Positions 12,199 to 32,539 of a stretch of DNA of 38,491 nt are shown here, one piece after another (within the stretch, counting starts at the first letter, position 1; each line of letters opens with the position of its first letter). Both the position numbers and the translations under genes were made by a program. The DNA lies in NCBI GenBank assembly GCA_028293175.1, contig JAQGPI010000058.1:1-38491 (forward strand), given 5' to 3'. Origin of the DNA: Verrucomicrobiaceae bacterium. Lineage in GTDB: Bacteria; Verrucomicrobiota; Verrucomicrobiia; Verrucomicrobiales; Verrucomicrobiaceae. The notes under the pieces were generated by a model. The model was not told the origin of the DNA. It was given only the letters and a program-made list of their open reading frames with translations, and did no database searches.

Positions 12199-12355
12199 GG
12201 AGCAGAAAGATTACGGATTCGGAGCGGAATCCGAAAGGCGGTGCTCAATGCGGATTTGTCTTGTGACCGTTGTATCTACACCGTATTCTCGCGTTCCCGA
12301 GAATTCCTTTGAATTTGCCCTGCGTCTTTTTCTCATGTGCGCCTCCTTTTTGATC

Positions 12356-15300: not shown

Positions 15301-15502
15301 CCCGCTGCTGGACTGGCCCACGGTGCGTGGCAAAATTTATGTCGTGGAGTATTCCGACAACCAGGGCGCGAACTGGCACAGCGCCGTCCACCGCCTCACC
15401 GGCGGCACCACCGGCCTGCGCTGGATCGACCGTGGCCAGCCCGAGACGTTCTCAAAACCGCTGAACAAAGCGGCGCGGATGTACCGGGTGAAGGAGCTTT
15501 AG
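12356..15502 (+). CDS. Large secreted RCC1-repeat protein (first of two paralogues)
   Basis: From the ATG at 12356 the protein has 1048 residues and a signal peptide (MKKPGRVFARRAMAALLGLM...DARA). Two blocks of RCC1-type repeats, each unit of the form VxxIAAGxxHSLALKxDGTVVAWG, fill about residues 60-350 and 460-760 and should fold as beta-propellers. Between them and after them are beta-rich segments. The one after the second block (LSISNEGTRTLENVLVVISG ... PFTLTFTPRRPGPALAELKV) resembles ASH/choice-of-anchor-type Ig-like domains. The end (VVEYSDNQGANW ... NKAARMYRVKEL) is shared with the next gene. The frame extends back to a TTG at 12164 inside the terminator, which I reject. The role is unknown; extracellular binding is plausible. 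Confidence 0.82.
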   Translation: MKKPGRVFARRAMAALLGLMGLTAVDARAERSAPVEFEIAPLPPPPPWPVLEVKIGDEWRTPTTRIAAWGTSDLARRVPVGLEYVVAVAAGETQALALKSDGTMVGWTDADYRTGMEVPQGLTGVVAIAACYAYSEAVLQDGTVVHWGDAVSSRAGSPFAPPRGLTGVKKIAAAGAHSVALMNDGTVTCWGDARFHQTNVPAGLADVTAVAAGAAHSLALKSDGTVVAWGSNQSGEATVPRDLGRVIAIAAGSGFSLALQADGTVRVWGVNGYDLVRVPAGLTGVVQIAAAGDHSLALKSDGTVVAWGAGGLPSNLAPTGPDGSPKIGGVQALVAGNNFNAAIVSSIEMDRAPPGANSTTSSPPLRLRNPGSLPLLGVRTLVGNVAEGSFSLDEVSDPINPLGIRQLQVRYTPTVDADSYTRLQIMTDVTQRARDYTIFARFAKLGMIDAQGDAVSTTGATKVVAWGQKDYGEGSPPADLTNAVSIAAGGNMSMALRSDGTVTHFGWYNSAPPYPGSPPDEAVNIRAIAAGDTFYLGLTDEGTVVQRGGGDTALIPKGLSHVAAIAAGSAALALKQDGTVVIWGDNPYSPYLTPPKGLKEVTAIATGDYGPTLAVKLDGTVVSWGMDNYADAAFHSTKPPKGLANVKAVAAGRYHALALKFDGTVVAWGENDPWAHPEVPGLLDVPQGLSGVTAIAANIYHSAALKADGTMVCWGPGYARSTMVPPRLSGVIGIATGVAHTLALTESAGTFATTPVQQSRSHQLSISNEGTRTLENVLVVISGRDADEFKMDKKPSSTVGYHPAPFTLTFTPRRPGPALAELKVHANTQDSWFVLPLTGMGAPPPFLITAARAGTRGASFTYASPRSDPVTGLMLQRLTFKNTTGWRLDGLRLSLARLPVGISLYSGSDGITPGTLEVLYTKPVQAAEMVSFDLVYFDPYRRTAASLNPLIKVAPLEAAVANPAPVDGKLIPVRRIRDTAAGPLLDWPTVRGKIYVVEYSDNQGANWHSAVHRLTGGTTGLRWIDRGQPETFSKPLNKAARMYRVKEL

Positions 15503-15589
15503 GAGGAATGGGAGGAATGGCGCGTCCACGCCGCATCCACATTCCTCCCCTCCTTCCCATTCCTCCCAGCATTACCTCGTTGTAATGCT
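15501..15589. repeat. GGAGGAATG inverted repeats between the RCC1 paralogues
   Basis: Just after the first RCC1 stop, GGAGGAATGGGAGGAATG (about 15502-15519) faces reverse-complement copies ATTCCTCCC at 15541-15549 and 15559-15567, allowing two alternative stems. A second small perfect hairpin follows: AGCATTAC-CTCGTT-GTAATGCT at 15568-15589. There is no run of T after either, so they are not clear terminators. Confidence 0.6.
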
Positions 15590-15645
15590 TGCGCGCAGGG
15601 CATGTCTTGCGTGGGGGGCGTATTAGAAGGATAAAGGCCCTGCCA

Positions 15646-18600
15646 ATGAAAACCATGCCCACAGGTGCTGCCCTTGCCTTCCTGCTACTGCTGGCGGGCG
15701 GTGTGGTGGCGCGGGCGGACCAATCACAGCAGCCGGTGGCGGTGCTGGAACAATTCGATTACGACATCGGCAGCTGGCAGCCCGCGAGCTCGCGGCTGGT
15801 GGGCTGGGGGCGGGATGCAGCACTCATCGCCGCCATGCCGATGGGGCTGGAGGGCGTGGATCAGGTGGCGGTGGGCGATGATCATGTGCTGGCGCTGATG
15901 AGCGATGGCACGGTGGTGGCCTGGGGCAGACCGGGCAGCAGCAGTGGGGATCCTAGCCAGGGCCGTGCGCTCACGCGGTTCGGCCAAGTGTATGGCATCG
16001 CGGCGGGCGCAGCCCACAGCTATGCGCTGATGGCCGATGGCACGGTGGTGGCCTGGGGCTTGGGCGGCAGTTACATAGTGCCCGGGGTGAGGGGTGTGGT
16101 GAAATTGGAGGCCAGGAACCACTTCGTCCTGGGGCTGAAGGGCAATGGCACGCTGGCCGCCTGGGGCGATGATTGGGGCGAGATCGCGCTGCCTGCCGGG
16201 CTCACCGATATGGTGGATGTGGCGCAGGGTTACCTACACTGCCTGGCCTTGCGCCGCGATGGCACGGTGGTGGCCTGGGGCATGAACGGCAACGGCGAGT
16301 GCAATGTGCCTGCCAATCTGGGGCCTGTGAAGAGCATCGCGGCGGGCTCCGCTTTCAGCGTGGCGCTGCTGGCCGATGGCACGGTGACCGCCTGGGGCAG
16401 CAACGCACAGGGCCAGCTCGATGTGCCCGCCGGACTCAGCGATGTGGTGTGGATCAAGGCCGGTCTCTACCATGCCCTAGCCTTGAAGAAAGATGGCTCA
16501 CTGGTCCGTTGGGGGGATCGCAACACGGAGCAGCCGCCGCTGCCGCCCGTGGGCGGGGTGGTGGACATGGCGGCGGGCATCTCTGCGGACTTCGTGATCG
16601 TGCGCTCGATCACCCTGGACCGCTTTGATCGAAGCTGGGCTCCCTCCGCCCGCAGCCTGCCTTTGCGCCTGCGCAATCCCAGCACCACCACGGCCATCAA
16701 TGGTCTGGCGCCGGGCTTTGATCCGGTAACCCAGGGGAAATTCGCCCTCGCATCCTTCAACAAGGCAGACACCGCGACCTTTGCGCTCGATCCGGTGATC
16801 GCGCCGGGCAAGGTATCCAAGGTGTTCCAGATCGATTACACCATGTCGGCGGATGTGGATACCTTCACCCGCCTGCACAGTCCGAACGGCACCGAGCGGC
16901 CGCTGATGGATGCGACGGTGATCGTGGGCAGGGCGAAGCTGGACGTGGTGGATGTGTTTGGCGAGCGGATCTCCCTCACCGGCGAAACGAAGGTAAAGGC
17001 CTTCGGCCCGATCACTGTGCCGGAAGGGCTGAACCATGTCTCCAGCCTCGTTGCCGGACCGTGGAACAGCGCGGCGCTGAACAAGGACGGCACAGTGGCG
17101 GTCTGGGGCTTTACCGCTCCCAATGTGATCCCGCCGCTCACCGATGTCACCTCCGTCGCCGTGGGGGCCGATCACTTCCTCTTCCTTAACGGTCAGCGCA
17201 AAGTGGTGGGCTTGGGTCCGGGTTACGGCAATCTGAAGGTGATTGAGGGGCTGGCCAATGTGACCGCAGTGGCGGCGGGCGAATACCACAGCCTGGCCTT
17301 GAAGGCGGATGGCACGGTGGTGGCCTGGGGCGACAATACCTACGGCGAATGCAATGTGCCCAAGGGGCTGAAAGGGGTGACGGCGATTGCCGGAGGCGCC
17401 TCCGGTGTGTCATTGGCGCTGAAAATCGATGGCACGGTGACCGGCTGGGGCGAGAACCGTTACGGTGCCTCCAAGCCGCCTGCGAACCTGAAAAAAGTGA
17501 AGGCGATAGGCGCCGGGCGCCGCCATTCGCTGGCACTAAAGACCGATGGTACGGTGGTAGCCTGGGGCGACACACTGGGGGCGAACCCGAAAGACCCGCC
17601 CGCAGGGCTGGCCGGTGTGACGGCGATTGCCGCCAGCGAAACGCACAATCTGGCGCTGAAGGACGATGGTACCGTGGTCGGCTGGGGTGACAATTCCAGA
17701 GGCCAGCTCACCATGCCCGCCGGGCTCGATGGCGTGATCGGCGTGGCCGCTGGCGGTAACTACTCCCTGGCGCTGATGGAGGGCGCGAGCACCTTTGCCC
17801 CCACCGTTCTCGGGCACTCGCGGGTGCACCATCTTTCTGTCAAGAACATAGGCTCGCTGAAGATGGAGCTAAGCGGCGCTGTCCTCAGGTCGAACCAGGG
17901 GGGCTTCAAGCTCGAGGGGGTGGCGGCCTACAAAGGGCCCTATGATCCGCCAGTCACCCTCGGGTCCACGCCGCTGTCCCTCACCATCACCTTCACCCCC
18001 ACGCACGTAGGGCCGCACGCGGCGTATCTCGAGATTTACAGCCCTGACCGGGGCGGCCCCTTCACCCTGCTGCTCACGGGCTACGGGAAGCTGCCGTCGG
18101 TGGAGGCGACAGCGGCGAAGCCGGGCACGGTCGGCGCCACCTTCACCGCCGGGCCGCTGCGCTCTGATCCACTCACCGGCGTGCTGCTCCAGCGCCTCGT
18201 CTTCACCAATATCTCCGGCTACCGCCTGGAAGGCCTGCGCCTGGCGGTCTCCCACCTCGCTTCCGGCCTTTGGCTGCACAGCAGCTACTCCGGCGAGACC
18301 CCGGGCACCACGGAGGTCCTCTACCGCGCGCCCATCGGCATAGGCGAAACGGTGAGCTTTGACCTCGTGTATCAGGATGCGTACCGGCGCAATCCCGCCA
18401 GCCTCAGCCCTGTGGTGGAGGCCCTGCCATCTGAGTACGGCGGCGCCGGCGGCATGTTCGACGGCACGCTGGTGCCCCTGCGCAGCGTGCGCGATACGCC
18501 CCAGGGCCCGCTGCTGGATTTCGCCACCAAGCGCACCGAGGTTTACGGGGTGGAGTACTCGGATAACGGCGGCATTACTTGGAATGGTGCCTCGCAGGTT

Positions 18601-18708
18601 TTCTCCGCCACTATCCGCGTGCTGTGGATTGACCGTGGCCCGCCCGCGACGATTTCTAAGCCGCTGAACAAAGCGGCGCGGATTTACCGGGTGAAGGAAT
18701 TGAATTAG
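15646..18708 (+). CDS. Large secreted RCC1-repeat protein (second paralogue)
   Basis: The 1020-residue protein repeats the architecture of its upstream neighbour: a signal peptide (MPTGAALAFLLLLAGGVVAR), a first RCC1 propeller block to about residue 320 and a beta-rich spacer (SLPLRLRNPSTTTAINGLAP). A second RCC1 block, an Ig-like segment (FTPTHVGPHAAYLEIYS) and the shared C-terminal domain ending NKAARIYRVKELN follow. The ATG at 15646 is chosen because the signal peptide starts there; an in-frame ATG at 15589 would add 19 non-conserved residues. The two genes are tandem duplicates that have since diverged, most closely related at the C-terminus and in single repeat units. The ligand and function are unknown. 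Confidence 0.82.
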   Translation: MKTMPTGAALAFLLLLAGGVVARADQSQQPVAVLEQFDYDIGSWQPASSRLVGWGRDAALIAAMPMGLEGVDQVAVGDDHVLALMSDGTVVAWGRPGSSSGDPSQGRALTRFGQVYGIAAGAAHSYALMADGTVVAWGLGGSYIVPGVRGVVKLEARNHFVLGLKGNGTLAAWGDDWGEIALPAGLTDMVDVAQGYLHCLALRRDGTVVAWGMNGNGECNVPANLGPVKSIAAGSAFSVALLADGTVTAWGSNAQGQLDVPAGLSDVVWIKAGLYHALALKKDGSLVRWGDRNTEQPPLPPVGGVVDMAAGISADFVIVRSITLDRFDRSWAPSARSLPLRLRNPSTTTAINGLAPGFDPVTQGKFALASFNKADTATFALDPVIAPGKVSKVFQIDYTMSADVDTFTRLHSPNGTERPLMDATVIVGRAKLDVVDVFGERISLTGETKVKAFGPITVPEGLNHVSSLVAGPWNSAALNKDGTVAVWGFTAPNVIPPLTDVTSVAVGADHFLFLNGQRKVVGLGPGYGNLKVIEGLANVTAVAAGEYHSLALKADGTVVAWGDNTYGECNVPKGLKGVTAIAGGASGVSLALKIDGTVTGWGENRYGASKPPANLKKVKAIGAGRRHSLALKTDGTVVAWGDTLGANPKDPPAGLAGVTAIAASETHNLALKDDGTVVGWGDNSRGQLTMPAGLDGVIGVAAGGNYSLALMEGASTFAPTVLGHSRVHHLSVKNIGSLKMELSGAVLRSNQGGFKLEGVAAYKGPYDPPVTLGSTPLSLTITFTPTHVGPHAAYLEIYSPDRGGPFTLLLTGYGKLPSVEATAAKPGTVGATFTAGPLRSDPLTGVLLQRLVFTNISGYRLEGLRLAVSHLASGLWLHSSYSGETPGTTEVLYRAPIGIGETVSFDLVYQDAYRRNPASLSPVVEALPSEYGGAGGMFDGTLVPLRSVRDTPQGPLLDFATKRTEVYGVEYSDNGGITWNGASQVFSATIRVLWIDRGPPATISKPLNKAARIYRVKELN

Positions 18709-20919: not shown

Positions 20920-21783
20920 ATGGCCGCCAAACCCATCCTCGAGCAAGTGCCCCGCCATCAGGACGAGTCGTTCGATTGCGAGGTCATCCATGGGCGCGAT
21001 TACGGCACGCGCTGGCATTTCCATCCCGAAGTGCAGATCACCCTCGCCATCCGCAGCAACGGCTACCGCATCGTGGGCGACAACATCTCACCCCTGCGCG
21101 ATGGCGATCTGGTGCTGGTAGGCTCCGAGGTCCCGCACGTGTGGCAGCAGGACGAGATCCGCGAAGCCGCCGTGCATGCTATTGTGCTGCGCTTCACGGA
21201 GGACTTCCTCGGCCGCGACTTCCTCGCACGTCCTGAGATGGCTGCCGTGGTGAAGTTGTTGCAACGCGCCCGCCGTGGCCTGGAGGTGAATGGCAAGACC
21301 CGTCGCGAAGTCACCCAGCGGCTGCTGGTGCTTTCGGAAGCCACCGGCCTCGACCGTGTGATTGCGCTTCTCGGCGTGCTCGATGTACTCGCCCGCGCCA
21401 ACGACCTGAAGACGCTCGCCAGCGCTGGCTTCCGCCCGCAACTCGACGCGAGTGACCAGGAGCGCATGGGCCGCATCATGCGCCATATTCAGGAGCACCT
21501 CACCGAGGAGATCGCCCGCGATGATGTCGCACGTATCGCCAGCCTAAGCGCTGGCGCTTTCAGCCGCTACTTCCGCAATCGCACCGGCAAGACCCTGCCA
21601 GAGTATGTGAACGAACTGCGCATCGGCCGCTCCTGCCGCTTCCTGGTGGAAACCGATGCACCCGTGACCGAAATCGCCCTCGACTGCGGCTTCCAAAACC
21701 TCGCGAACTTCAACCGCTGGTTCCGCAAGGTCACCAGCACCGTGCCCCGCGACTACCGCAGCACCTTTGGCCGCAGCCGGTGA
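20920..21783 (+). CDS. AraC-family transcriptional regulator with N-terminal cupin
   Basis: The 287-residue protein has an N-terminal cupin-type sensing domain (YGTRWHFHPEVQITLAI ... LRDGDLVLVGSEVPHVW) and a C-terminal AraC double helix-turn-helix (about 185-285). The latter contains IARDDVARIASLSAGAFSRY, RNRTGKTLPEYVNELRIG and CGFQNLANFNRWFRKV. Such proteins usually sense a sugar or small metabolite through the cupin. The ligand and targets cannot be told; it sits between ribosomal genes and a convergent LysR gene whose stop codon directly abuts its own, giving TGA/TCA at 21781-21786. Confidence 0.93.
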   Translation: MAAKPILEQVPRHQDESFDCEVIHGRDYGTRWHFHPEVQITLAIRSNGYRIVGDNISPLRDGDLVLVGSEVPHVWQQDEIREAAVHAIVLRFTEDFLGRDFLARPEMAAVVKLLQRARRGLEVNGKTRREVTQRLLVLSEATGLDRVIALLGVLDVLARANDLKTLASAGFRPQLDASDQERMGRIMRHIQEHLTEEIARDDVARIASLSAGAFSRYFRNRTGKTLPEYVNELRIGRSCRFLVETDAPVTEIALDCGFQNLANFNRWFRKVTSTVPRDYRSTFGRSR

Positions 21784-22710
21784 TCACGCCGCCTTCTCCC
21801 CAAACGCCCCTGTCACCTCACGGCACAATCCCAGAAACGTCTCGGCCATGAACGACAGGCGCTGGCCGCTGTAGGACACTATACCCCATTCGCGGCGCAT
21901 CGAGGTGCCGGAGTAGGGGATGCTCACCAGCGAACCGGCATCCGTCTCGCGTGCCGTGACCCAGGGCGCGAGCACGCCCACTCCAAGGCCTACTTTCACC
22001 ATCTCCTTAATCGCCTCCATGCTGCCCAGCGACAGGATGGCGGAGGCGGGCACGCCCATCTTCTTTAATGAAGCGAGGATGAGCTGCGAGGTCACCGCGA
22101 TGCGGTCATACACAATCATCGGCTGGCCTGCGAGATCCTTGCGCGACACGCGATGCATCGTCGCTAGCGGGTGAATTGGACTAACATAGAACTTCAGGTT
22201 ATCGCTGAACAACGAATGCCACTTCAAGCTGGCGGGAAAGTCCGCCTTCACACACAAGGCCAGATCCAGCCGTCCTTCATCCACTAGCTTCGCCGCCGTA
22301 TCGGTATCCACCGCCGTGATGTTCAGCGTGCAGTCAGGGAAGCATTCGCGGAATTCCAGCAGCACGGCGGGCAGGAAATACTGGCACGCGCTTGCGGGTG
22401 CCGCGATGCGCAGTGTGCCTCGTCCCCATTCCTGCAAGGCCTGCATCTCCTGCCTTGCCGCCCGCATTTGGCGCAGGATGCGCTCGGCATGGCGCAGCAA
22501 TCTTTCGCCTGCGGCGGTGAGCACGGCGTGATGGCCGCGCCTTTCAAACAGAGCGCCGCCCATCTCAGTTTCGAGCGCCTTGATGGAGTGGCTCATGGCC
22601 GAGGGAGTCAACCCCAGCGCGCTCGCGGCGGCGGAGAAACTCCCCAGTCGCGCGAGCATGGTAAAAGCGCGCAGCCGCCGTGAATCCAGGGGTTCGTCGA
22701 GTGCGGTCAT
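21784..22710 (-). CDS. LysR-type transcriptional regulator, likely of nitrate assimilation
   Basis: From the ATG at 22710 the protein has 308 residues: an N-terminal winged helix (DSRRLRAFTMLARLGSFSAA, ALGLTPSAMSHSIKALE) and a periplasmic-binding-like effector domain (GTLRIAAPASACQYFLP, DLALCVKADFPASL, KEMVKVGLGVGVLAPWVTA). The open frame reaches back to 22914, but those residues lie in the intergenic DNA and are not conserved-looking. It is divergent from the nitrate transporter genes, and a TTCA-N9-TGAA box at 22731-22757 lies just before its start. By analogy with NtcB/Cbl-type LysR regulators I infer that it controls the nitrate genes and itself. Confidence 0.9.
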   Translation of the reverse strand: MTALDEPLDSRRLRAFTMLARLGSFSAAASALGLTPSAMSHSIKALETEMGGALFERRGHHAVLTAAGERLLRHAERILRQMRAARQEMQALQEWGRGTLRIAAPASACQYFLPAVLLEFRECFPDCTLNITAVDTDTAAKLVDEGRLDLALCVKADFPASLKWHSLFSDNLKFYVSPIHPLATMHRVSRKDLAGQPMIVYDRIAVTSQLILASLKKMGVPASAILSLGSMEAIKEMVKVGLGVGVLAPWVTARETDAGSLVSIPYSGTSMRREWGIVSYSGQRLSFMAETFLGLCREVTGAFGEKAA

Positions 22711-22730
22711 GTTCAGAGGAGATGAATAAG

Positions 22731-22757
22731 ATTCAACGTTGTGTTGAAAACAATGAT
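22731..22757. promoter_or_regulatory. 27-bp TTCA-N9-TGAA box, copy 1 (putative LysR operator)
   Basis: The box contains the dyad TTCAAC-GTTGT-GTTGAA (22732-22748) and continues as AACAATGAT. It is identical at 23 of 27 positions to the box at 28525-28551, which precedes the other nitrate transcription unit. An interrupted palindrome between a LysR gene and its divergent target is the standard site for this family, though the strict T-N11-A form is not present. Confidence 0.72.
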
Positions 22758-22778
22758 AGCCACTTGCGTGCCATGATG

Positions 22779-22802
22779 GCCCGTCTTGGCACGTCTGCGG
22801 CT
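22779..22802 (+). promoter_or_regulatory. Sigma-54-like -24/-12 element upstream of nrtA
   Basis: TTGGCACG-TCTG-CGGCT at 22786-22802 has the invariant GG and GC separated by 10 bases. The TGGCACG half matches the -24 consensus exactly; the -12 half has CGGCT for TTGCA/T. The surrounding 24 bases match the block at 28572-28595 at 21 positions. Transcription would begin near 22813, leaving a ~270-base leader. An alternative reading is a dyad CGTGCCA (22768-22774) / TGGCACG. Confidence 0.5.
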
Positions 22803-22985
22803 TAATGACTTGGCGTGAAAATCGCCGCCGCATCCTTCCCAAACACCCGCTTCCAGGCCGTCTGCGCCTGGGCGTTACGCCGGTACACAAACCTTCTGCC
22901 GGTGTCCGGCACATCCTCTTTCACGGGCCTCAGGCTCCGCTGCCGCGGCCCTGTGGAGTCACCATGGTTGGTTGATGAGATGCCT

Positions 22986-23018
22986 CGCCACGGCCTGCCT
23001 CTAAGGGCAGCCGTGGCG
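22986..23018 (+). repeat. Stable hairpin in the nrtA leader
   Basis: CGCCACGG and CCGTGGCG (22986-22993, 23011-23018) continue inward as CTGCC / GGCAG with one bulged C and a six-base loop TCTAAG. No T run follows, so it is not an intrinsic terminator. It may be a leader structure or an interspersed palindrome. The loop does not fit the A-x-x-G-x-x hexaloop known for ANTAR-type antiterminator targets. Confidence 0.65.
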
Positions 23019-23084
23019 TACGCATCCCGCCGCCAGCCAACGCCTTTCCTCTCTCGCTGAATCTGTTTCCAGCTCCCCTCTAAT

Positions 23085-24356
23085 ATGAAAGCCCCCACGC
23101 TCGCTACTCCCTCCTCCTCCCTCAGCCGCCGCCATTTTATTACTCGCTCAGCCGCAGGCCTGCTTGCCGCCGGTCTACCCACAGGATGGGTCGGCAGCGT
23201 GTATGCTGATGACTCGCCAGAGGTCACTGACATCAAGCTCGGCATCATTGCCCTCACCGATTGCTCGCCCATCGTGATTGGTCATGAGAAGGGCTTCTTC
23301 AAGAAGTTCGGCATCAACTCCACCGTTAGCAAAGAAGCGTCCTGGGCAGTGATTCGTGACAAGCTCACCACCGGTGAAAACCAGGCCACGCACATGCTCA
23401 TCGGCATGCCTCTTGCCTCCACCATGGGCCTCGGCGGCTCGGCGAAAAAGGAGATGGTCATCCCCTGGCTGCTCAACCGCAACGGCCAGGCCATCACGCT
23501 TGCCAACAGCCTCAAAGGTAAGGTGGCGGCTGATCCCAAGGCTTTGAAGCCCATCGTCGATGCGGCCAAGGCGGCCGGTGCTCCGATGACTTTCGCCATG
23601 ACCTTCCCGCCCGGAACACACGCCATGTGGATGCGTTATTTCCTCGCTGCCGGCGGCATCAATCCCGATACCGATGTGAACCTCATCGTGATCCCGCCAC
23701 CCCAGATGGTGGCTAACATGAAGGTGGGCAAAATGGACGGCTTCTGCGTGGGCGAACCCTGGAACGCCCGCTCCATCGCCGAGGACATCGGCTTCACCAG
23801 CATCACCACCCAGGAGATGTGGAAGAACCATCCGGAAAAAGTTTGTGCCTTCACCAAGGAATTCGCCGAGACAAACCCGAAGACCGTGAAGGCCGTATTG
23901 AAGGGCCTGCATGAGGCCAGCGTGTGGCTCGATGATCTGGGCAACCGCAAGGAGCAGTGCGACATCGTCAGCAAGGCCAGCTATGTGAACTGTCCGCCCG
24001 AGATCATCTATGACCGCCTCATGGGCAACATGGACTACGGTGATGGCCGCACCAAGAAGGATGAAGATTACATGATCTTCAGCAGCCGGAACTGCAACTT
24101 CCCTCAGGCCAAGTTTGCCAAGTGGTGGCTAAGCCAGTTCCGTCGCTGGGGCATGGTGGAAGGCGCGCCCGACTATGAAGGCGTGGCGAAGTCGGTCATG
24201 ATGCCATCGCTCTATGAAGAGGCGATGAAGGAAATCGGCTACGCCCACGGCGGTGCCGATGACAAGCCCGAGACCTTCTTTGACGGCGTGACCTTTGACC
24301 CTTCGAAGCCCGAGGAATACGCCAAGAGCTTCGCCGTGAACAGCATCAAGGGCTGA
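23085..24356 (+). CDS. nrtA: Nitrate ABC transporter substrate-binding protein, Tat-exported
   Basis: The 423-residue protein is of the NrtA/SsuA family that captures nitrate in the periplasm. A Tat signal is clear: SRRHFI at residues 14-19 followed by a hydrophobic stretch ending near VYADDS. The mature part has family motifs (IKLGIIALTDCSPIVIGHEK, FCVGEPWNARSIAE, AMWMRYFLAAGGINPD). It is followed by the permease (22-base gap) and double ATPase. A putative LysR box and sigma-54-like element lie about 285-355 bases upstream. Specificity for nitrate over bicarbonate or cyanate rests on the neighbouring nitrate and nitrite reductase genes. Confidence 0.92.
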   Translation: MKAPTLATPSSSLSRRHFITRSAAGLLAAGLPTGWVGSVYADDSPEVTDIKLGIIALTDCSPIVIGHEKGFFKKFGINSTVSKEASWAVIRDKLTTGENQATHMLIGMPLASTMGLGGSAKKEMVIPWLLNRNGQAITLANSLKGKVAADPKALKPIVDAAKAAGAPMTFAMTFPPGTHAMWMRYFLAAGGINPDTDVNLIVIPPPQMVANMKVGKMDGFCVGEPWNARSIAEDIGFTSITTQEMWKNHPEKVCAFTKEFAETNPKTVKAVLKGLHEASVWLDDLGNRKEQCDIVSKASYVNCPPEIIYDRLMGNMDYGDGRTKKDEDYMIFSSRNCNFPQAKFAKWWLSQFRRWGMVEGAPDYEGVAKSVMMPSLYEEAMKEIGYAHGGADDKPETFFDGVTFDPSKPEEYAKSFAVNSIKG

Positions 24357-24378
24357 TGCCCAGCACCCCGCACGAGAC

Positions 24379-25215
24379 ATGAATTCGAAACTTCTCCAAC
24401 GTCTGCTGCTGCCCTTTGTGGGCCTGATCATCGTCCTTGTAGCCTGGCAGGCCCTGTCCGGTTACACGGCTGAAACCAAGCTGCCATCAGGCTTCACCAA
24501 GAAGATCAAGGCAGGCATCATCAAAGATCTGCCGGGCCCTGTGCAGACGTGGACGGCGACGAAGAAATACATCGTGGAGCCCTTTGCCAAACGTGCGGAG
24601 CTCGATCAGGGCGTGCTGCGCTTCACCTGGTACTCGCTCATCATGGTGGGGAAGGGCTATGCGCTCGCGCTGCTCATTGGTACGCCGCTTGGGTTCATGC
24701 TGGGCCTGTCGAAGAAATTCGCCGCCATGTTTGATCCCTTGATCCAGGTGCTGCGGCCCGTGTCGCCGCTCGCCTGGATGCCGCTGGGCGTGGTGCTCTT
24801 CATGGGCGCGGGCAAGGATGCCAATGAACTGGGCGCTCTCTTCACCATCGCGGTCTGCGCCATGTGGCCCACGGTGCTGAATACCGCCGTAGGCGTGCGC
24901 GCCGTGCCACAGGATTACCTCAATGTGGCGAAGGTGCTGAAGCTCTCCTGGCCGAAGACGCTGTGGAAGATCTACCTGCCCGCCACGCTGCCGTACATGT
25001 TCACCGGCTACCGCCTCAGCCTTGGCATTGCCTGGCTGGTGATCGTGGCGGTGGAGATGCTCACCGGTCGCATCGGCATCGGCAACTTCCTCTGGAACGA
25101 ATACAACAACGGCCTCTACACCAGCATCATCCTTTGCATCATCACCATCGGGCTGGTGGGATGGGGCCTGGACCGCCTGATGACCCTGGTGGAGTCGCGG
25201 CTGAAGACGGCATGA
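24379..25215 (+). CDS. nrtB: Nitrate ABC transporter permease
   Basis: The 278-residue membrane protein matches NrtB/SsuC-type permeases: an N-terminal helix (LLLPFVGLIIVLVAWQALSG), a short periplasmic segment and about five more helices. The ATPase-contact EAA-type loop is around VLKLSWPKTLWKIYLPATLP. Motifs such as PVSPLAWMPLGVVLFMGAG are typical of the nitrate/taurine group. It lies between nrtA and the fused ATPase gene. Confidence 0.93.
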   Translation: MNSKLLQRLLLPFVGLIIVLVAWQALSGYTAETKLPSGFTKKIKAGIIKDLPGPVQTWTATKKYIVEPFAKRAELDQGVLRFTWYSLIMVGKGYALALLIGTPLGFMLGLSKKFAAMFDPLIQVLRPVSPLAWMPLGVVLFMGAGKDANELGALFTIAVCAMWPTVLNTAVGVRAVPQDYLNVAKVLKLSWPKTLWKIYLPATLPYMFTGYRLSLGIAWLVIVAVEMLTGRIGIGNFLWNEYNNGLYTSIILCIITIGLVGWGLDRLMTLVESRLKTA

Positions 25216-25249
25216 TGCCGCGCGGCTCGAAATCAAATCGTATCACACC

Positions 25250-27013
25250 ATGATTGAACTTAACCAAGTCTCGAAGTCCTTCGACGGCAATGCCGTGCTG
25301 CGGGACATAACGCTCAAGGTGGAGCCCGGGCAGTTCATTGCAATCGTCGGCTATTCCGGCAGCGGCAAGAGCACCCTCATGAACCTGATCGCCGGCCTGC
25401 AGAAGCCGGACACCGGCACCATTACCATGGATGGCGCGCCGGTCTCAGGTCCGGGCCCAGACCGCGGGCTGGTGTTCCAAAACTACTCGCTGCTGCCCTG
25501 GCTGAACGTGCACGAAAACATCGCGCTCGCAGTGGACCAGATCTTCTCTGGCGAGACCAGGGGCGAGCGCCAGCTTCGCGTGGGGGAAGCCATCGCGATG
25601 GTGAAGCTATCGCACGCGGCGGACAAGCTGCCTCGCGAACTCTCCGGCGGGATGAAACAGCGAGTGGCCGTGGCGCGCACCCTCGCTACGAAGCCCAAGG
25701 TGCTGCTGCTGGATGAACCTCTGAGCGCCCTGGATGCACTTACTCGCTCGGTGCTGCAGGATCAGATCCTGGAGATTCGCGAGCAGACCGGGCAGACGAT
25801 CATCCTCATCACCAATGATGTGGATGAGGCCCTGTACATGGCCGACCGCATCATCCCGCTGAGCACGGGACCGGGCGCCACCTTCGGCCCCGAAGAAACG
25901 GTGCCCGCACCGCATCCCCGCAATCGTGCGGAGCTGATCCGCACCCAGGAAATGCGCGAGGTGCGCGAGCGGGTAGTGAATTACCTGCTGGCCCAGCGCC
26001 GGGACTCGGCGGCTTCGGAGGAAGTCAGCTCCGAGATCCCCGCTGAAATGTGGCCGGTAGACATCACCGGCGTACAGCCCGTCTTCGCCATGCGCATGCT
26101 GCGCGGCAATGAGGAAGAGTCGATGACGCTGCGCCGCGCTGGCGTGCGTGCTCCGGTGAAGGACCTGAAGTTCGTCGATAACGCCTTTGTCGATATCACC
26201 AAGCTGTGCAAGAGCTTTGGAACACAGCCGGTGGTGAATGATTTCAACCTGCGTGTGAAGCGCGGCGAATTCGTCAGCATTATCGGCCACAGCGGCTGCG
26301 GCAAGTCCACGGTGCTGAGCATGGTGGCCGGTTTGCTGGATGCCACCGATGGCGCGATGATTCTGGATCGTCGTGAGATCACCTGTGCCGGGCCGGATCG
26401 CGGCATGGTCTTCCAAAGCCCCTGCCTGCTGCCCTGGATGACCGCATTGGAAAACGTGATGCTGGGTGTTAAACAAGTGTATTACCACCGCACCCGGAAG
26501 GAGCGCCTGGAACTGGCCACGCATTTCCTTGAGCAGCTAGGCCTTTCGGCTTCGATGCACAAGCGGCCCGGCGAGCTTTCGCAAGGGATGCGCCAGCGTG
26601 TGGGGCTTGCCCGCGCCTTTGCCTTGCAGCCGAAGGTGCTGCTGCTGGATGAACCCTTCGGCATGCTGGACAAGCTGACCAAGATCGAGCTGCAGGACGT
26701 GCTGCTCACCCTCCGCAAACGCACCGGCACCACAGCGCTCATGGTCACGCACGATGTCGATGAGGCCATCTACCTCTCGGATCGTGTGGTGATGATGAGC
26801 GACGGCCCCTCCGCTTCGGTCGCTGAAATCCTTGCCATCGAATTTGAGCATCCCCGCGAGCGGCATGCGCTCATGGCCGAACCGGCCTGGCACGAATACC
26901 GGGCCCACATGCTCAGCTTTCTGCAAGAGCGCGCTCATCATCGTGGCGTCACGATGGAGTTCGCCCGTTCCGCAACCCCTCTCCTGGGCCTGTCGCCGCG
27001 CCGTGCGGCGTGA
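25250..27013 (+). CDS. Nitrate ABC transporter, two ATPase domains in one chain (NrtC/NrtD fusion)
   Basis: The 587-residue protein carries two complete ABC ATPase units. The first has Walker A GYSGSGKST (about 34-42), signature LSGGMKQRVAVAR and Walker B VLLLDEPLSALD. The second has Walker A GHSGCGKST (about 345), signature LSQGMRQRVGLAR and Walker B VLLLDEPFGMLD. They are joined by about 80 residues, including VNYLLAQRRDS. In cyanobacteria NrtC and NrtD are separate chains and NrtC bears a nitrate-binding-like regulatory domain; here both ATPases are in one chain without that domain. It should pair with the permease encoded just before it. Confidence 0.92.
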   Translation: MIELNQVSKSFDGNAVLRDITLKVEPGQFIAIVGYSGSGKSTLMNLIAGLQKPDTGTITMDGAPVSGPGPDRGLVFQNYSLLPWLNVHENIALAVDQIFSGETRGERQLRVGEAIAMVKLSHAADKLPRELSGGMKQRVAVARTLATKPKVLLLDEPLSALDALTRSVLQDQILEIREQTGQTIILITNDVDEALYMADRIIPLSTGPGATFGPEETVPAPHPRNRAELIRTQEMREVRERVVNYLLAQRRDSAASEEVSSEIPAEMWPVDITGVQPVFAMRMLRGNEEESMTLRRAGVRAPVKDLKFVDNAFVDITKLCKSFGTQPVVNDFNLRVKRGEFVSIIGHSGCGKSTVLSMVAGLLDATDGAMILDRREITCAGPDRGMVFQSPCLLPWMTALENVMLGVKQVYYHRTRKERLELATHFLEQLGLSASMHKRPGELSQGMRQRVGLARAFALQPKVLLLDEPFGMLDKLTKIELQDVLLTLRKRTGTTALMVTHDVDEAIYLSDRVVMMSDGPSASVAEILAIEFEHPRERHALMAEPAWHEYRAHMLSFLQERAHHRGVTMEFARSATPLLGLSPRRAA

Positions 27014-27059
27014 TGATGACCCTGGTCAAAACAACACCTCCCACGCACACAACACACCT

Positions 27060-28445
27060 ATGCAACTGCCTCCCAAATCTCTCAATCGCTGGAGCGGAGC
27101 CATGCTCCTGGCATCACTTTTACCCGCCCTGCCTATTCACGCTGGTGACATGGGCAAGGTCTCAGCGAAAGCCCCGGTGGCTCCGCTGCCTGCAGCCAAT
27201 CCGCTGAGCTTTGCAGATGGCCGCATCGTCTTCGACTTCGAAGAAAAGCTGCGCTTCGAGTACCGGGAAAACAACTTCGATTTCAACAGTGCCAACAAGG
27301 CGCTGACGGATGATTCCTGGCTTCTGGAACACACCCGCCTCGGCGTGATGATCAAGCCTGCGACTTGGTTCAAGCTCTATGTGCAGGGCCAGGATGCGCG
27401 TGAATTCGGCTCGGATCGCCCGAACGTTCCCGGCGTGCTGGGTGCGGAAGGTGACGATACCTTCGACTTCCGTCAGGCCTACATTCAAATCGGTGAAGAC
27501 AAGGGCCTCTCGCTCAGGGCTGGCCGCCAGCTCATCTCTTATGGGGATGAGCGCATTCTGGGTGCCTTTGAATGGAACAATCTCTCCCGCAGTTGGGATG
27601 AGGCGAAGCTGCGCTATGAAGGCGACAAGTGGTGGGTCGATGCTTTCGCGGCTTCGCTCGTCACCTTCCAGGATGACAAGCTGAACCGCTCGGATCTCTT
27701 TGATAACAAGGGATTGGGGCGCAACCAGGTGCTCAGCGGGTTGTACTTCAGCACCACGGGTCTGGACTTCCAGACGACGGATGTATATGCGCTCTTCCTG
27801 CACGAGCAGTTCCCCACCGGGGATTCCGATTTCGCCACTTTCGGCACGCGCTGGAAGAGTGCTCCCGGCAAGTTCGGCCCCTGGGACTATGATGCGGAAT
27901 TCGTTGCCCAGACCGGCAAGGTGAAGGGCAAGGATTTGGCGGCCTTCGCCGGCCATGCGGAAGTGGGTTATACCTTTGATGCGCCATGGAAGCCTCGCTT
28001 CGCGCTGGACTATGATTATGGCTCCGGTGACGGCAATGCGGCGGATGGCAAGGTCAACACCTTCCAAAACCTGTATCCCACCAACCATCTCTACTACGGC
28101 TACGTGGATGTGTTCTCCTGGCAGAACATTCACGATGTGAATGCGAGCTTCAAGGTCAGCCCCTGTAAGACGGTGACGGCGAAGCTAGACTACCATATGT
28201 TCTGGCTGGCTGATACCAATGATGCCTGGTACCGCGCCAATGGCGTGGCCACCGTGCGCCCCATCACCCCCGGTGCCTCCAGCTTTGCAGGCTCGGAACT
28301 GGACCTCACGATCACTTATGCGCCGAAGAAATGGCTCAGCTTCCAGGCTGGCTACAGCCACTTCTTCGCTGGCAGTTACCTGAATGACACGGGTGCGTCC
28401 AGCGATGCTGACTTCGCTTACACGCAGATGACCATCAAGTTCTAG
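27060..28445 (+). CDS. Outer-membrane porin, alginate-export family, in the nitrate operon
   Basis: From the ATG at 27060 the protein has 461 residues with a signal peptide (LNRWSGAMLLASLLPALPIHA) and then alternating beta-strand sequence typical of an outer-membrane barrel. Motifs such as KLRFEYRENNFDF, LRAGRQLISYGDERILGAFE and AGYSHFFAGSYLNDTG are typical of the alginate-export (AlgE-like) family. It ends in Phe (FAYTQMTIKF), the usual barrel insertion signal. The frame stays open back to 26832 inside the ATPase gene, but that part is not used. Its position right after the nitrate ABC genes and before a terminator suggests that it admits nitrate through the outer membrane, not alginate. Confidence 0.85.
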   Translation: MQLPPKSLNRWSGAMLLASLLPALPIHAGDMGKVSAKAPVAPLPAANPLSFADGRIVFDFEEKLRFEYRENNFDFNSANKALTDDSWLLEHTRLGVMIKPATWFKLYVQGQDAREFGSDRPNVPGVLGAEGDDTFDFRQAYIQIGEDKGLSLRAGRQLISYGDERILGAFEWNNLSRSWDEAKLRYEGDKWWVDAFAASLVTFQDDKLNRSDLFDNKGLGRNQVLSGLYFSTTGLDFQTTDVYALFLHEQFPTGDSDFATFGTRWKSAPGKFGPWDYDAEFVAQTGKVKGKDLAAFAGHAEVGYTFDAPWKPRFALDYDYGSGDGNAADGKVNTFQNLYPTNHLYYGYVDVFSWQNIHDVNASFKVSPCKTVTAKLDYHMFWLADTNDAWYRANGVATVRPITPGASSFAGSELDLTITYAPKKWLSFQAGYSHFFAGSYLNDTGASSDADFAYTQMTIKF

Positions 28446-28462
28446 TCGATTTACCCCACACG

Positions 28463-28499
28463 GCCCTCTTCCCTTCTATTGAAGGGGAAGAGGGCTTTT
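28463..28499 (+). terminator. Intrinsic terminator after the porin gene
   Basis: GCCCTCTTCCCTTC (28463-28476) pairs with GAAGGGGAAGAGGGC (28481-28495) with one bulged G and a TATT loop, followed by TTTT. It separates the transporter/porin unit from the NasS-like gene. Confidence 0.92.
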
Positions 28500-28524
28500 G
28501 GCGTGGCCTCCCAAAGTGAATGGG

Positions 28525-28551
28525 ATTCATCGTTTGGCTGAAAACAATGAT
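28525..28551. promoter_or_regulatory. 27-bp TTCA-N9-TGAA box, copy 2 (putative LysR operator)
   Basis: This is the second copy of the box found beside the LysR gene: TTCA at 28526-28529, TGAA at 28539-28542, then AACAATGAT, with 23 of 27 positions identical. It begins 26 bases after the terminator and lies upstream of the gene at 28608, so the same regulator is likely to control both nitrate units. Confidence 0.72.
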
Positions 28552-28571
28552 GAAAACTGAATCCGAAGGGT

Positions 28572-28595
28572 GCCCGACTTGGCACGGCGGCGGCT
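28572..28595 (+). promoter_or_regulatory. Sigma-54-like -24/-12 element upstream of the NasS-like gene
   Basis: TTGGCACG-GCGG-CGGCT at 28579-28595 keeps GG-N10-GC spacing and an exact TGGCACG. It lies 27 bases after the 27-bp box, against 28 in copy 1. The predicted start of transcription (about 28605-28607) almost coincides with the ATG at 28608, which would make the mRNA leaderless. That is a reason for caution about the promoter reading. Confidence 0.5.
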
Positions 28596-28607
28596 ATTCA
28601 GAGAAGC

Positions 28608-29645
28608 ATGAAAACGGTTCATGCCACACGTTCCACTCCAACCCGCCGCGGCCACTATGCCCTGCGTGTTGGCTATGTGCCGCTGCTGGATTGCGCACCG
28701 TTGATTGCGGCCGTTGAGCTTGGTATGTGCGAGCGCAACCGCTTGAACATCAAGCTGATGCGGCAGCCGGGCTGGGCTAACATCCGTGACAATGTGATCT
28801 TCGGCGAACTGGATGCGGCTCATGCGCCTGCCGGTTTGCTGCTGGCGATCAACGCCGGTCTAGCCCCTGTGCCCGCTCATTGCGTCACGGCTTTTGTGTT
28901 CAGCCAGCAAGGCAATGCTATCACGCTGTCGAAGCGCTTGTATGATCGTGGCATCCGCGATCTGGCGGATCTTGCCCAGGAGGCCAAGCATCGCAGGGAA
29001 GGGGAGATGGTCACGCTCGGTGTCGTCAGCCGTTATTCCACTCACGCCCATCTGCTGCGCCAATGGCTGCGTCAGGGCGGCATGAAGGCAGAAAAGGATG
29101 TGCGCATTGTGATCCTGCCGCCGATGCAGATGTCGCAAAGTCTCGCTGCCGGCCATGTGGATGGCTTCTGCGTGGGCGAGCCCTGGAACACGGTTGCGGT
29201 GGCTGAAGGCCATGGTTGGCTGGCTGGCCACAGCTCCACTCTCGCACCGGGACATCCTGAAAAGGTGCTGATGGTGCGCCGCGATTTTGCTGAGCAACGT
29301 GAGGCCGAGCATCTCGCACTTGTGGCTTCATTGTTCGAAGCAGCCGCTTGGTGCGCCGAGCCTGCCAATCGCAACGACCTGGCGGCGATGCTGCATCGCC
29401 ATGCTTTCCCCGCGCTTACGCCGAAACTTATCAAGAGCAGCCTCGCGAGCGAAGACGCCCCAATTTTCCACGGTCCCGAGCTGCATCGTCCCGCACCGGC
29501 CAAGGCCTCATGGCTGGTGGATGAGATGCAGCGCCATGGCCTTCTCACCGCCGCTGCGGCTGTGGAGGCTCATCCCCTGGAAGCCTTCCGCCCCGACATC
29601 TACGACCTCGCCCTTTCCCAAAAACAACCCGCCCTCATCGCCTAA
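28608..29645 (+). CDS. Cytoplasmic NrtA-like protein (NasS-like nitrate sensor)
   Basis: The 345-residue protein is of the NrtA/SsuA binding-protein family but has no signal peptide: MKTVHATRSTPTRRGHYALR runs straight into the binding fold (VGYVPLLDCAPLIAAVELGM). It shares DGFCVGEPWN and HPEKV with the NrtA encoded at 23085. Cytoplasmic relatives of this kind include NasS, which senses nitrate or nitrite and holds the ANTAR antiterminator NasT inactive. No NasT-like gene is in the window, so the partner is unknown. It begins the second nitrate unit and is followed 12 bases later by the NarK-type transporter. Confidence 0.85.
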   Translation: MKTVHATRSTPTRRGHYALRVGYVPLLDCAPLIAAVELGMCERNRLNIKLMRQPGWANIRDNVIFGELDAAHAPAGLLLAINAGLAPVPAHCVTAFVFSQQGNAITLSKRLYDRGIRDLADLAQEAKHRREGEMVTLGVVSRYSTHAHLLRQWLRQGGMKAEKDVRIVILPPMQMSQSLAAGHVDGFCVGEPWNTVAVAEGHGWLAGHSSTLAPGHPEKVLMVRRDFAEQREAEHLALVASLFEAAAWCAEPANRNDLAAMLHRHAFPALTPKLIKSSLASEDAPIFHGPELHRPAPAKASWLVDEMQRHGLLTAAAAVEAHPLEAFRPDIYDLALSQKQPALIA

Positions 29646-29657
29646 CCACCGATCTCT

Positions 29658-30863
29658 ATGAAACTTTCCGACCTTAAATCCTCCGGTCACTGGCCCACCT
29701 TGCTGACCGCTTTCCTGTACTTCGATTTCAGCTTCATGGCTTGGACTGTTCTGGGCCCGTTGGGCGCGCAAATCGGTGAATCCTTGCATCTCGATGCCGG
29801 TCAAAAAGGCCTGATGGTGGCGCTGCCGATTCTGTCAGGAGCCGCGCTGCGCCTGATGCTTGGCCTCGCGGTGGACCGCATTGGAGCGAAGAAGACAGGT
29901 ATTATCGCGCAGATCATTGTTATGCTCGGCCTTGCCGCCGCATGGCTCATCGGCCTGCATTCATTCGGCATGGTTCTGGCGCTCGGATTAGTATTAGGCT
30001 TTGCCGGTGCAAGCTTCGCCGTGGCGCTGCCGCAAGCAGGCCGCTGGTATCCGCCGGGCATGCAAGGCGTCGTGATGGGGCTCGCTGGCGCAGGCAATGT
30101 GGGCGTGGTCCTCGACAGTCTGATCGCTCCGCGTCTTGCCAATGCCTATGGCTTCCAGAGCGTGTTCGGCTTCGCGCTGATTCCCGCTTTGATCGTGTTT
30201 GTGCTCTACATCGTCTTCAGCAAAGAAGCCCCTGGCGTTGTGAAGGTGAAGAAGCTGAGCGATTACGTGAAGCTCTTGAAGGAGAAGGATGCTCACTGGT
30301 TCTGTTTCTATTATACGGTGAGCTTTGGCGGCTTCGTCGGCCTCGCGAGCTACTACGTTCTCTACTTCAAAAGTGAGTTTGGTCTCGCTCCAGTGGCGGC
30401 GGGCGACAAGGCGGCACTCTGCACGCTGGCCGGTGCGCTGGCACGGCCCATCGGCGGTGCCATTGCGGATCGCATCGGCGGCATCCGCTCGCTCAGTGTG
30501 TTCTATTCCATCGCCGCCGCAGGCCTTGTGGCAACCGCCTTCACCCATCATCTGTATGGCAACCTGACCTTGTTCCTCCTCATCAGCGGCGCACTCGGCA
30601 TGGCCAATGGCTCGGTTTTCCAACTGCTGCCGCAGCGCTTCGGCAAGGACATCGGTGTGATGACTGGCCTTGTGGGCTGCGGCGGTGGCGTGGGCGGCTT
30701 CTATCTCGCCACTTCACTGGGCTACGCCAAGAGCGCCACGGGTTCCTGCAACGTCGGCTTCCTGGCTTTCGCGGGGCTCTGCTGCCTTGCCTTGGTAGGC
30801 CTCGCTTTGGTGAAGACCCGCTGGCGCACCACTTGGGGTGCCATCGCTGAAGCCCGCATCTGA
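29658..30863 (+). CDS. NarK/NasA-type nitrate/nitrite MFS transporter
   Basis: The 401-residue membrane protein has about 12 helices and belongs to the nitrate/nitrite porter branch of the major facilitator superfamily. The start (SGHWPTLLTAFLYFDFSFMA) and the Gly-rich nitrate signatures (FAGASFAVALPQAGRWYPPG, GMQGVVMGLAGAGNVGV, MTGLVGCGGGVGGFYLATSL) are typical. Key arginines expected in helices 2 and 8 are compatible with GAALRLMLGLAVDR and GALARPIGGAIADR. It gives a second route for nitrate besides the ABC system. Confidence 0.92.
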   Translation: MKLSDLKSSGHWPTLLTAFLYFDFSFMAWTVLGPLGAQIGESLHLDAGQKGLMVALPILSGAALRLMLGLAVDRIGAKKTGIIAQIIVMLGLAAAWLIGLHSFGMVLALGLVLGFAGASFAVALPQAGRWYPPGMQGVVMGLAGAGNVGVVLDSLIAPRLANAYGFQSVFGFALIPALIVFVLYIVFSKEAPGVVKVKKLSDYVKLLKEKDAHWFCFYYTVSFGGFVGLASYYVLYFKSEFGLAPVAAGDKAALCTLAGALARPIGGAIADRIGGIRSLSVFYSIAAAGLVATAFTHHLYGNLTLFLLISGALGMANGSVFQLLPQRFGKDIGVMTGLVGCGGGVGGFYLATSLGYAKSATGSCNVGFLAFAGLCCLALVGLALVKTRWRTTWGAIAEARI

Positions 30864-30903
30864 CATCTTTGAACAGCTCCCCAAAATTGCACGCACTGCC
30901 ACC

Positions 30904-32535
30904 ATGAAAATCCGGTCCACGGCCTACGGCATTCCATACGAAGAGGGGAAACCTTCGTCGGATGCGTTTGCCGTGCGCGAGTCCGGCCAAACCGTGGTGG
31001 CGGTGTTGTGTGATGGGGCCGGCACAGGCGCTCCGGCCCGCGAGGCCGCCGAACGCGCCGTCCGCTCCGTGACGGAAAACTACTGGGCGAAGCCGCGCGG
31101 ATGGCAGCCGCAACGCGCGCTGACGGAGTTCACGCACCTGATCAACCGCACCCTGCATCAGGAATCGATGGCGAGGTTTGATGGCGTGGAAATGGTTTCC
31201 ACACTCGCTGTTGCCGTCATCGAAGGTGACCGCCTGTATGGCATCAATGTCGGTGATTCCCGGGTATGCGTGATGCGTGAAGGTCGGCTTCTCCAGCTCT
31301 CGCAGGATCATGTGTCTGCGGAACAACACAACGTGCTGACCCGCGCGCTGGGACTCGGCCAGGACATCGAGCCGCATGTGTTTGAGTCGGACATCAATGC
31401 GGGTGACGTTGTGGTGCTTTGCTCCGACGGTGTCAGCAATCATTTCACCAATGAGACGATGAGCGAGGCGCTGCAAAAGTGCGCCAGCGCGCGCACTCTG
31501 GTCACCGACGCCCGACTCCGGGCCGTGGACGAATCCTTGGACGACATGAGCGCGATCGTGCTCGACGTCGCTGAAACAGGTAAACTCCGCGCCATGAATG
31601 ACCGACAGCTCACGATTCCAGAGGCGCTGAACAAGGGCGATGTCATTGACGGCTACCAGCTTGTTAGGCAGTTCCAGCACGCCGACCGTGTATGGCTGGC
31701 AGACAAGGATGGCATGCGCGTGGTGCTGAAGTTCGCGCCCCGCGAAGCCATTGACAGCGAAGCTCATCTGAACGCCTTCACCCGCGAAACGTGGAATGCC
31801 ACACGGCTGGCGGAAGACTGCTTTGCCCGGGCCCTCGAACCTCTGGGGCAGACGGCACGCTACTACGTGATGGAGTTCGTGGATGCACCGAACCTCGCTT
31901 CGGTACTGCAAGCGCGCAGGCTTTCGGTGGATTCAGCCATCGCCCTTGGGCTTTTCCTTTGCGAAGCCGGGCTTGTTCTTCTGCGCCATGACCTTGTGCA
32001 TGGCGACATCAAGCCGGAGAATGTGCTCTGCCTTGGCGACTATGCGCGGCTGACCTTCAAGTTGGTGGATATCGGCAGCGCGGCTGGCGTGTTTTCCGTC
32101 ACCTCACGCGCTGGAACGCCCAGTTATCTGGCTCCCGAACGTTTCCACCAGTCACCTGTTAGTGAGCGAACTGAGATCTTTGCCATCGGTGTCACGCTGT
32201 ATCAGTCGCTTACCGGCGTGCTTCCCTACGGCGCCATCGAGCGTTTCCAGACTCCCGTTTTCGGTGCCCCGAAACGCGCCGCCCTGCTTAATCCCAACAT
32301 CCCTCACTGGCTCGATGCGGTGATCATGCGCTCCATCGCCCGCAAGCCCGAGCGCCGTTACCAAAACTATTCCGAACTCGCCTTCGACCTCGCGCATCCG
32401 GAAAAAGTGGAGGCCTGTTTCGAAGAAGACGCCCCGCTGTTGGAACGCAATCCGCTGCTTTTTTACAAGACCGGATTCTTCATTCTCGCCGCCCTGTGCT
32501 TCTGGCTGGCCTCCAAGCTCCTAACCCACCCCTGA
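30904..32535 (+). CDS. Fused PP2C phosphatase / Ser-Thr kinase with C-terminal membrane helix
   Basis: The 543-residue protein begins with a PP2C-type phosphatase (VLCDGAGTGAPAREAAERA, LYGINVGDSRVCVMREGRL, VVLCSDGVSNHF, LDDMSAIVLDV). A Hanks-type kinase follows from about 240 to 515: catalytic loop HGDIKPEN near residue 366, DIG in place of DFG, and RAGTPSYLAPERF. It closes with a single membrane helix (FFILAALCFWLASKLL). The glycine-rich loop is hard to see. The ATG at 30904 is 41 bases after the transporter stop; a GTG at 30838 would overlap that gene. A kinase gene between a nitrate transporter and nitrite reductase is also known in Pseudomonas nitrate clusters. Its target is unknown. Confidence 0.88.
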   Translation: MKIRSTAYGIPYEEGKPSSDAFAVRESGQTVVAVLCDGAGTGAPAREAAERAVRSVTENYWAKPRGWQPQRALTEFTHLINRTLHQESMARFDGVEMVSTLAVAVIEGDRLYGINVGDSRVCVMREGRLLQLSQDHVSAEQHNVLTRALGLGQDIEPHVFESDINAGDVVVLCSDGVSNHFTNETMSEALQKCASARTLVTDARLRAVDESLDDMSAIVLDVAETGKLRAMNDRQLTIPEALNKGDVIDGYQLVRQFQHADRVWLADKDGMRVVLKFAPREAIDSEAHLNAFTRETWNATRLAEDCFARALEPLGQTARYYVMEFVDAPNLASVLQARRLSVDSAIALGLFLCEAGLVLLRHDLVHGDIKPENVLCLGDYARLTFKLVDIGSAAGVFSVTSRAGTPSYLAPERFHQSPVSERTEIFAIGVTLYQSLTGVLPYGAIERFQTPVFGAPKRAALLNPNIPHWLDAVIMRSIARKPERRYQNYSELAFDLAHPEKVEACFEEDAPLLERNPLLFYKTGFFILAALCFWLASKLLTHP

Positions 32536-32539
32536 TACC

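Follow-up and report, generated by a model that had tools for sequence, protein, structure and literature searches.

The DNA analysed here, called the window below, comprises 38,491 nt of contig JAQGPI010000058.1 from a Verrucomicrobiaceae bacterium and carries two nitrate units. The first (nrtA-nrtB-nrtCD-porin) lies next to a divergent gene of a LysR-family regulator, and the second (nasS-narK-PP2C/kinase-flavoprotein-nirA) begins with the gene of a NasS-like protein. In front of each unit a copy of the same composite element is found (Table 1). Both copies are noncoding, as had been predicted from the sequence, with lysR starting at position 22710 and nasS at position 28608. A longer open reading frame (21784–22914) is an upstream over-extension of lysR. 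Within the second unit, the region 30838–32535 encodes a PP2C phosphatase fused to a protein kinase, which is kept in the nitrate operon of four relatives (G001, G002, G010, G032). Elsewhere in the window two adjacent genes encode giant RCC1-repeat proteins (12164–15502 and 15589–18708).

Table 1. Genes and candidate control sites around the two copies of the element (positions in the window).
Feature	Position	Strand	Remarks
LysR-family regulator gene (lysR)	21784–22710	-	ATG at 22710; conserved HTH LTPSAMSHSIKALE
Copy 1, LysR-type dyad ATGAATAAGATTCAA	22722–22736		contains TGAATAAGATTCA; T-N11-A; centre 59 bp upstream of promoter GG
Copy 1, A-rich block TGAAAACAATGAT	22745–22757	+	conserved GAAAA column block
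Reverse sigma-54-like site TGGCACGCAAGTGGCT	22758–22773	-	directed toward lysR; back-to-back -24 elements at a distance of 13 bp
Copy 1, putative sigma-54 promoter TGGCACGTCTGCGGCT	22787–22802	+	-24 GG 22788–22789; -12 GC 22800–22801; predicted start ~22813
nasS relic	22815–23060	+	open frame of 81 codons; its GTG start in register with nasS of G008; 3' part kept, middle deleted
nrtA, nitrate ABC transporter binding protein	23085–24356	+	first intact gene of unit 1
Copy 2, LysR-type dyad GTGAATGGGATTCAT	28516–28530		centre 58 bp upstream of promoter GG
Copy 2, A-rich block TGAAAACAATGAT	28539–28551	+	
Copy 2, putative sigma-54 promoter TGGCACGGCGGCGGCT	28580–28595	+	GG 28581–28582; GC 28593–28594; predicted start ~28606
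NasS-like nitrate-binding protein (PF13379)	28608–29645	+	first gene of unit 2

By direct reading we could confirm that a 27 bp box (22731–22757 and 28525–28551) is identical at 23 of 27 positions between the copies, that a 24 bp block (22779–22802 and 28572–28595) is identical at 21 of 24 positions, and that box and block are separated by 21 bp in copy 1 and 20 bp in copy 2. An independent repeat search recovered both pairs, the block with 88% identity, and lengthened the box leftwards to 35 bp (22723–22757 and 28517–28551, 83%). The box pair of the original prediction is real, but its left edge had been set too short, as the dyad begins 9 bp further left. Likewise, the gap had been described as unmatched between the copies; it has indeed diverged, but in copy 1 it holds a reverse sigma-54-like site that copy 2 does not have. 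A chance repeat was rejected: the box pattern occurs twice in the window, for which 100 dinucleotide shuffles gave an expectation of zero, and a scan of the organism's own genome (5.39 Mb, 76% complete) at up to three mismatches returned only the two window sites and none for the reversed control.

The box turned out to be the right part of an interrupted dyad, ATGAAT-N3-ATTCAT, after which the A-rich block TGAAAA follows. The TTCA-N9-TGAA motif that had been taken as the core of the box joins the right arm of the dyad to this A-rich block; it may represent a second subsite, and the A-rich block itself is possibly a second LysR subsite or an A-tract. The usual form of LysR-type sites is T-N11-A (PMC3382589), and this form is found here as TGAAT-N3-ATTCA between the LysR gene and its target. 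At the element loci the dyad adjoins the LysR orthologue, whose DNA-binding domain is conserved, and it is probable that the dyad binds the LysR-family protein encoded beside copy 1. In genome G041 lysR, the element, narK, and nirA are present and NasS was not found; thus, the element goes with lysR rather than with nasS. Two loci of Phycisphaerae (L108, L133) have the same dyad beside lysR-nasS and lack the sigma-54 site. The main sites of LysR-type regulators usually, though not obligatorily, lie near -65 relative to the start of the target, and their activation subsites extend toward -35 (PMC4730206); the dyad departs from this norm, its centre lying at about -83 from the predicted sigma-54 start.

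By its sequence the 24 bp block is a sigma-54 (RpoN) -24/-12 core promoter. In TTGGCACG-N4-CGGCT the GG and GC dinucleotides are 12 nt apart and the GG is embedded in TGGCAC (TGGCAC-N7-GCT), in line with the consensus TGGCAY...TGCW and comparable to the Salmonella sigma-54 sites listed in PMC3844500. The base preceding GC at -12 is G in both window copies (GGC, not TGC) and T in most relatives; in this column, which was not imposed by the search, T occurs in 25 of 40 sequences, G in 10, C in 5, and A in none. As the -24/-12 block alone is not rare (29 sites found versus 21 expected in the window at three mismatches), we judged it only together with its spacing and conservation. The canonical form TGGCACN5TTGCW has 14 matches in the own genome and three for the reversed control. 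The own genome encodes both rpoN and three clear sigma-54 activator ATPase genes, one of them adjoining a PAS histidine kinase; rpoN is present in 57/57 genomes, and its presence therefore cannot discriminate. Five genomes, all of one genus, have two rpoN genes (G007, G015, G020, G023, G033). One genus (L015, L020, L023, L026, L030) has two tandem TGGCAC boxes 8 bp apart upstream of nasS, TTGGCACGCTGGCAC, and at L150 (G000:C546:2062-2077) a second flavoprotein gene of the sulfite-reductase type has a canonical sigma-54 site 59 nt ahead of it.

NasS homologues are encoded in 29 of the 57 related genomes, and upstream regions were drawn from these relatives and from named Verrucomicrobiota (Verrucomicrobiales, Opitutia, Methylacidiphilum, Pelagicoccus, Roseibacillus). 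The usual order in the relatives is divergent lysR start, dyad, A-block, TGGCAY-N7-GCW, and nasS. In a strict composite test, which allowed three mismatches in the dyad and one in the promoter and demanded a spacing of 57–59 between dyad centre and GG, 40 of 53 Verrucomicrobiota upstream regions scored versus none in 50 shuffled sets; the 53 loci are related by descent and the counts are not independent, though several classes are spanned. Of the 40 loci, 31 have a distance of exactly 58 and the remaining nine one of 57 or 59, and the element sequences align almost without gaps. Among the 13 regions that failed (L007, L013, L014, L017, L029, L063, L064, L069, L070, L072, L074, L076, L078) some lack a convincing dyad next to their promoter-like site, and others combine a dyad with a degenerate promoter; L013 and L017 are located upstream of second NasS paralogues. 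On this comparison, a LysR-type site fixed 58 bp ahead of a sigma-54-type promoter appears to be a layout kept at nitrate genes across Verrucomicrobiota.

The distance from block to dyad is constant, that from block to start codon is not, with leaders ranging from 2 to more than 60 nt. In the window's family (window 28606–28610; L010, L020, L027) the nasS start codons follow the predicted sigma-54 start by 2–7 nt. Such transcripts would be nearly leaderless, which is odd for a leadered mRNA; at the narK and flavoprotein copies, unlike nasS of this family, the leaders are about 20–30 nt. That the family nasS start codons fall almost on the predicted start, together with the customary position of LysR main sites near -65 (PMC4730206), would suit a reading in which TGGCAY-N7-GCT is the site of another protein or a 5'-leader element and transcription starts from a sigma-70-type promoter between dyad and block. 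We regard this as very unlikely: no conserved TATAAT-like block is found between dyad and block, both the pattern TGGCAY..(T)GC and the interval of 12 from GG to GC match sigma-54, the constant distance to the dyad and variable distance to the start codon fit a promoter, and reverse-orientation copies face lysR exactly where a promoter is wanted.

Alternatively, the dyad could be the enhancer of an NtrC-type sigma-54 activator, with the LysR gene merely nearby. Such an activator needs a place to bind or act, enhancers typically take the form of a short dyad, and -83 falls within the usual enhancer range of 70–150 bp (PMC3844500). Nevertheless, we give this explanation little chance, as the spacing is rigid (57–59) over the phylum whereas enhancers tolerate variation, and as only a single dyad is present. 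In addition, TGAAT-N3-ATTCA has the T-N11-A form of LysR sites (PMC3382589), the dyad adjoins the LysR gene start in most loci, and in the two Phycisphaerae loci it stands beside LysR where no sigma-54 site exists.

The original prediction also called for a search for copies at unrelated loci and for conservation upstream of nitrate genes in relatives. A model built from the sequence only was searched over the 57 relatives, a search that favours the modelled spacing, and it detects both window copies (E 4e-11 and 7e-9). Many relatives have two or three copies per nitrate locus, and further copies precede narK (34–41 nt ahead of its start), nirA, nasA, flavoprotein, and porin genes. In a sample of the phylum 20 of 289 genomes had matches at E<=1e-3, and all 25 matches lie at nitrate-assimilation loci. 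Among 28 NasS-bearing genomes of other phyla there was no full-length match, the best ones being partial with E 2e-3 or worse. The full composite is also present at L184 (G031:C62:9645-9726, E 2e-4), where the fetched contig stretch has no recognised nitrate gene or porin. The element is near-exclusively restricted to nitrate genes: copies are not scattered over the own genome, the relatives, or the phylum sample, and the element is kept upstream of nitrate genes throughout Verrucomicrobiota. Both results support the earlier proposal of a selected regulatory element before both nitrate units, and the two similar stretches appear to be genuine switches that control the genes for nitrate use behind them.

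The gaps of the two copies differ because the gap of copy 1 carries the reverse site toward lysR; at copy 2 the divergent gene and the reverse site are both absent. Of 47 regions, 14 have a back-to-back reverse site at 11–13 bp, versus a mean of 0.1 in shuffles, and such a site accompanies 23 of 55 elements with a divergent lysR versus none of 26 without (Fisher p 3e-5, ignoring shared descent). Beyond its nearest relatives, most of the window's own family lacks the reverse site, so that lysR must be driven otherwise there. From the reverse site a lysR start at ~22747 is predicted, and the dyad lies between this start and the ATG. As the bound LysR protein would sit inside the predicted lysR leader, lysR is probably repressed by its own product.

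This geometry bears on a variant of our explanation, in which the LysR protein only represses by blocking the sigma-54 polymerase or the activator and nitrate relieves the block. As summarised in PMC5263251, the LysR-type regulator of atzDEF represses its own sigma-54 promoter, and the placement of the dyad within the lysR leader is the same here. On the other hand, the dyad at -83 does not overlap the nas promoter, and its rigid spacing is no less compatible with a productive contact than with exclusion. We consider pure repression unlikely, though it deserves more weight than the alternatives above.

Behind copy 1 the history of the element can be traced. In the genomes G008 and G016 the gene order is lysR, nasS, nrtA, and copy 1 with its downstream bases aligns to the promoter and start of nasS in these genomes (112 bp, 77% in G008), the alignment resuming at the nasS 3' end. 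The relic frame begins with VKIAAASFP (VKITAPSST in G008) and includes WLVDEMPRHGL (WLVDEMLRHGL in G008), and an intact nasS with its own promoter copy is found at 28516–29645. Judged from these alignments, copy 1 is the element that originally drove nasS, and the duplication would have arisen when nasS was copied or moved with its promoter, leaving the relic behind. Separate nrtA and nasS units with the element before each are also found in G001 and G004. Since the relic reveals a past duplication or splitting of the promoter region together with nasS, one might suppose that the copies are alike only through this event and that one is now functionless. This seems hardly credible to us, because dyad, A-block, and -24/-12 have stayed alike while gap and flanks diverged, because these blocks are kept across classes of the phylum with two-copy layouts in other genera, and because no promoter candidate other than copy 1 was found before nrtA.

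Taken together, we think it quite likely that each copy is a complete sigma-54 promoter with a LysR operator, read by the LysR protein and sigma-54 RNA polymerase. The transcript of each nitrate unit would start from the sigma-54 (RpoN) -24/-12 promoter, and the LysR protein from the gene beside copy 1 would bind the dyads at -84 (copy 1) and -83 (copy 2). The general nitrogen signal would enter through the sigma-54 RNA polymerase and a putative NtrC-type ATPase activator of nitrogen limitation, and the nitrate- or nitrite-specific signal through the LysR protein. The fixed spacing suggests a face-specific contact or a DNA bend between the LysR protein and the polymerase or activator. Bound at copy 1, the LysR protein would in addition repress lysR; copy 2 would be under the same control without a divergent gene, and so have no reverse site. 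The grounds for this proposal are architecture, spacing, conservation, restriction to nitrate genes, and the presence of rpoN and activator genes, from which we infer binding, sign of regulation, effector, start sites, and activator.

A LysR protein cannot itself open the sigma-54 complex, and an activator ATPase is therefore needed. No enhancer for it was found, and the 76 bp from the lysR ATG to the promoter would hardly accommodate a separate one. The activator could act from within lysR or from solution, the latter as described for the atz regulator gene and its sigma-54 promoter (PMC5263251). More tentatively, the LysR protein at its fixed -83 position might be an obligatory partner of the sigma-54 polymerase, positioning the polymerase or recruiting the ATPase in place of a distant enhancer; we see this as possible, with the odds somewhat against it. 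If true, sigma-54 would be controlled throughout the phylum in a way that is not known to have been described.

We also considered control at the leader. No NasT/ANTAR protein scored above the cut-off in the 57 genomes (the own genome being 76% complete), while the same search found NasT in 4/4 proteobacterial NasS genomes, and the nitrate part of the window (21500–38491) has no Rfam match; on these three results NasT/ANTAR leader control was set aside. A NasS-NasT system has NasT encoded alongside NasS, which these genomes do not show above the cut-off, and a two-hairpin leader RNA to which the ANTAR protein binds. The NasS-like proteins of the window (28608–29645) and its relatives occur without a detected NasT/ANTAR partner.

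In the open literature searched, we found nothing on LysR in nitrate assimilation of Verrucomicrobia and no description of how nitrate assimilation is controlled in Verrucomicrobiota. This phylum is large, and most of it is uncultured. The open titles, abstracts, and passages searched show no LysR protein co-activating a sigma-54 promoter. As far as searched, the layout of LysR site and sigma-54 promoter before nitrate genes is new to the open literature. Coupling of LysR to sigma-54 at a fixed spacing is not required by current models of sigma-54 activation. The element would serve as a readable promoter code that predicts members of the nitrate regulon, and it suggests a route to nitrate-gene control without NasT in Verrucomicrobiota.

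Among described systems, atzR-atzDEF of Pseudomonas sp. ADP appears nearest in arrangement, and NtcB with NtcA nearest in logic. The promoter of the target operon atzDEF is not of the sigma-54 type and serves the cyanuric acid pathway, whereas the target promoters here are sigma-54-like; moreover, the element here is repeated in a nitrate regulon of several units, with a LysR-to-promoter spacing that is fixed across the phylum. As summarised in PMC5263251, the atz region has a divergent LysR gene with its own sigma-54 promoter and one LysR site for both directions, the arrangement predicted here; also counted among the likenesses are activation of the regulator's sigma-54 promoter by NtrC without an enhancer and its repression by the regulator, which is predicted here. 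The NasS-NasT system with NtrC of Paracoccus and other Proteobacteria likewise has a NasS-like nitrate-binding protein and upstream control by nitrogen limitation (PMC5424462), but it acts by leader antitermination, whereas we propose a LysR operator at the promoter and found no NasT above the cut-off in 57 genomes. In cyanobacteria, the LysR-family protein NtcB is a nitrate- or nitrite-specific activator that acts at the promoters of nitrate assimilation jointly with a general nitrogen-limitation factor; this factor is the CRP-type NtcA there (PMC5424462), and sigma-54 would take its place here.
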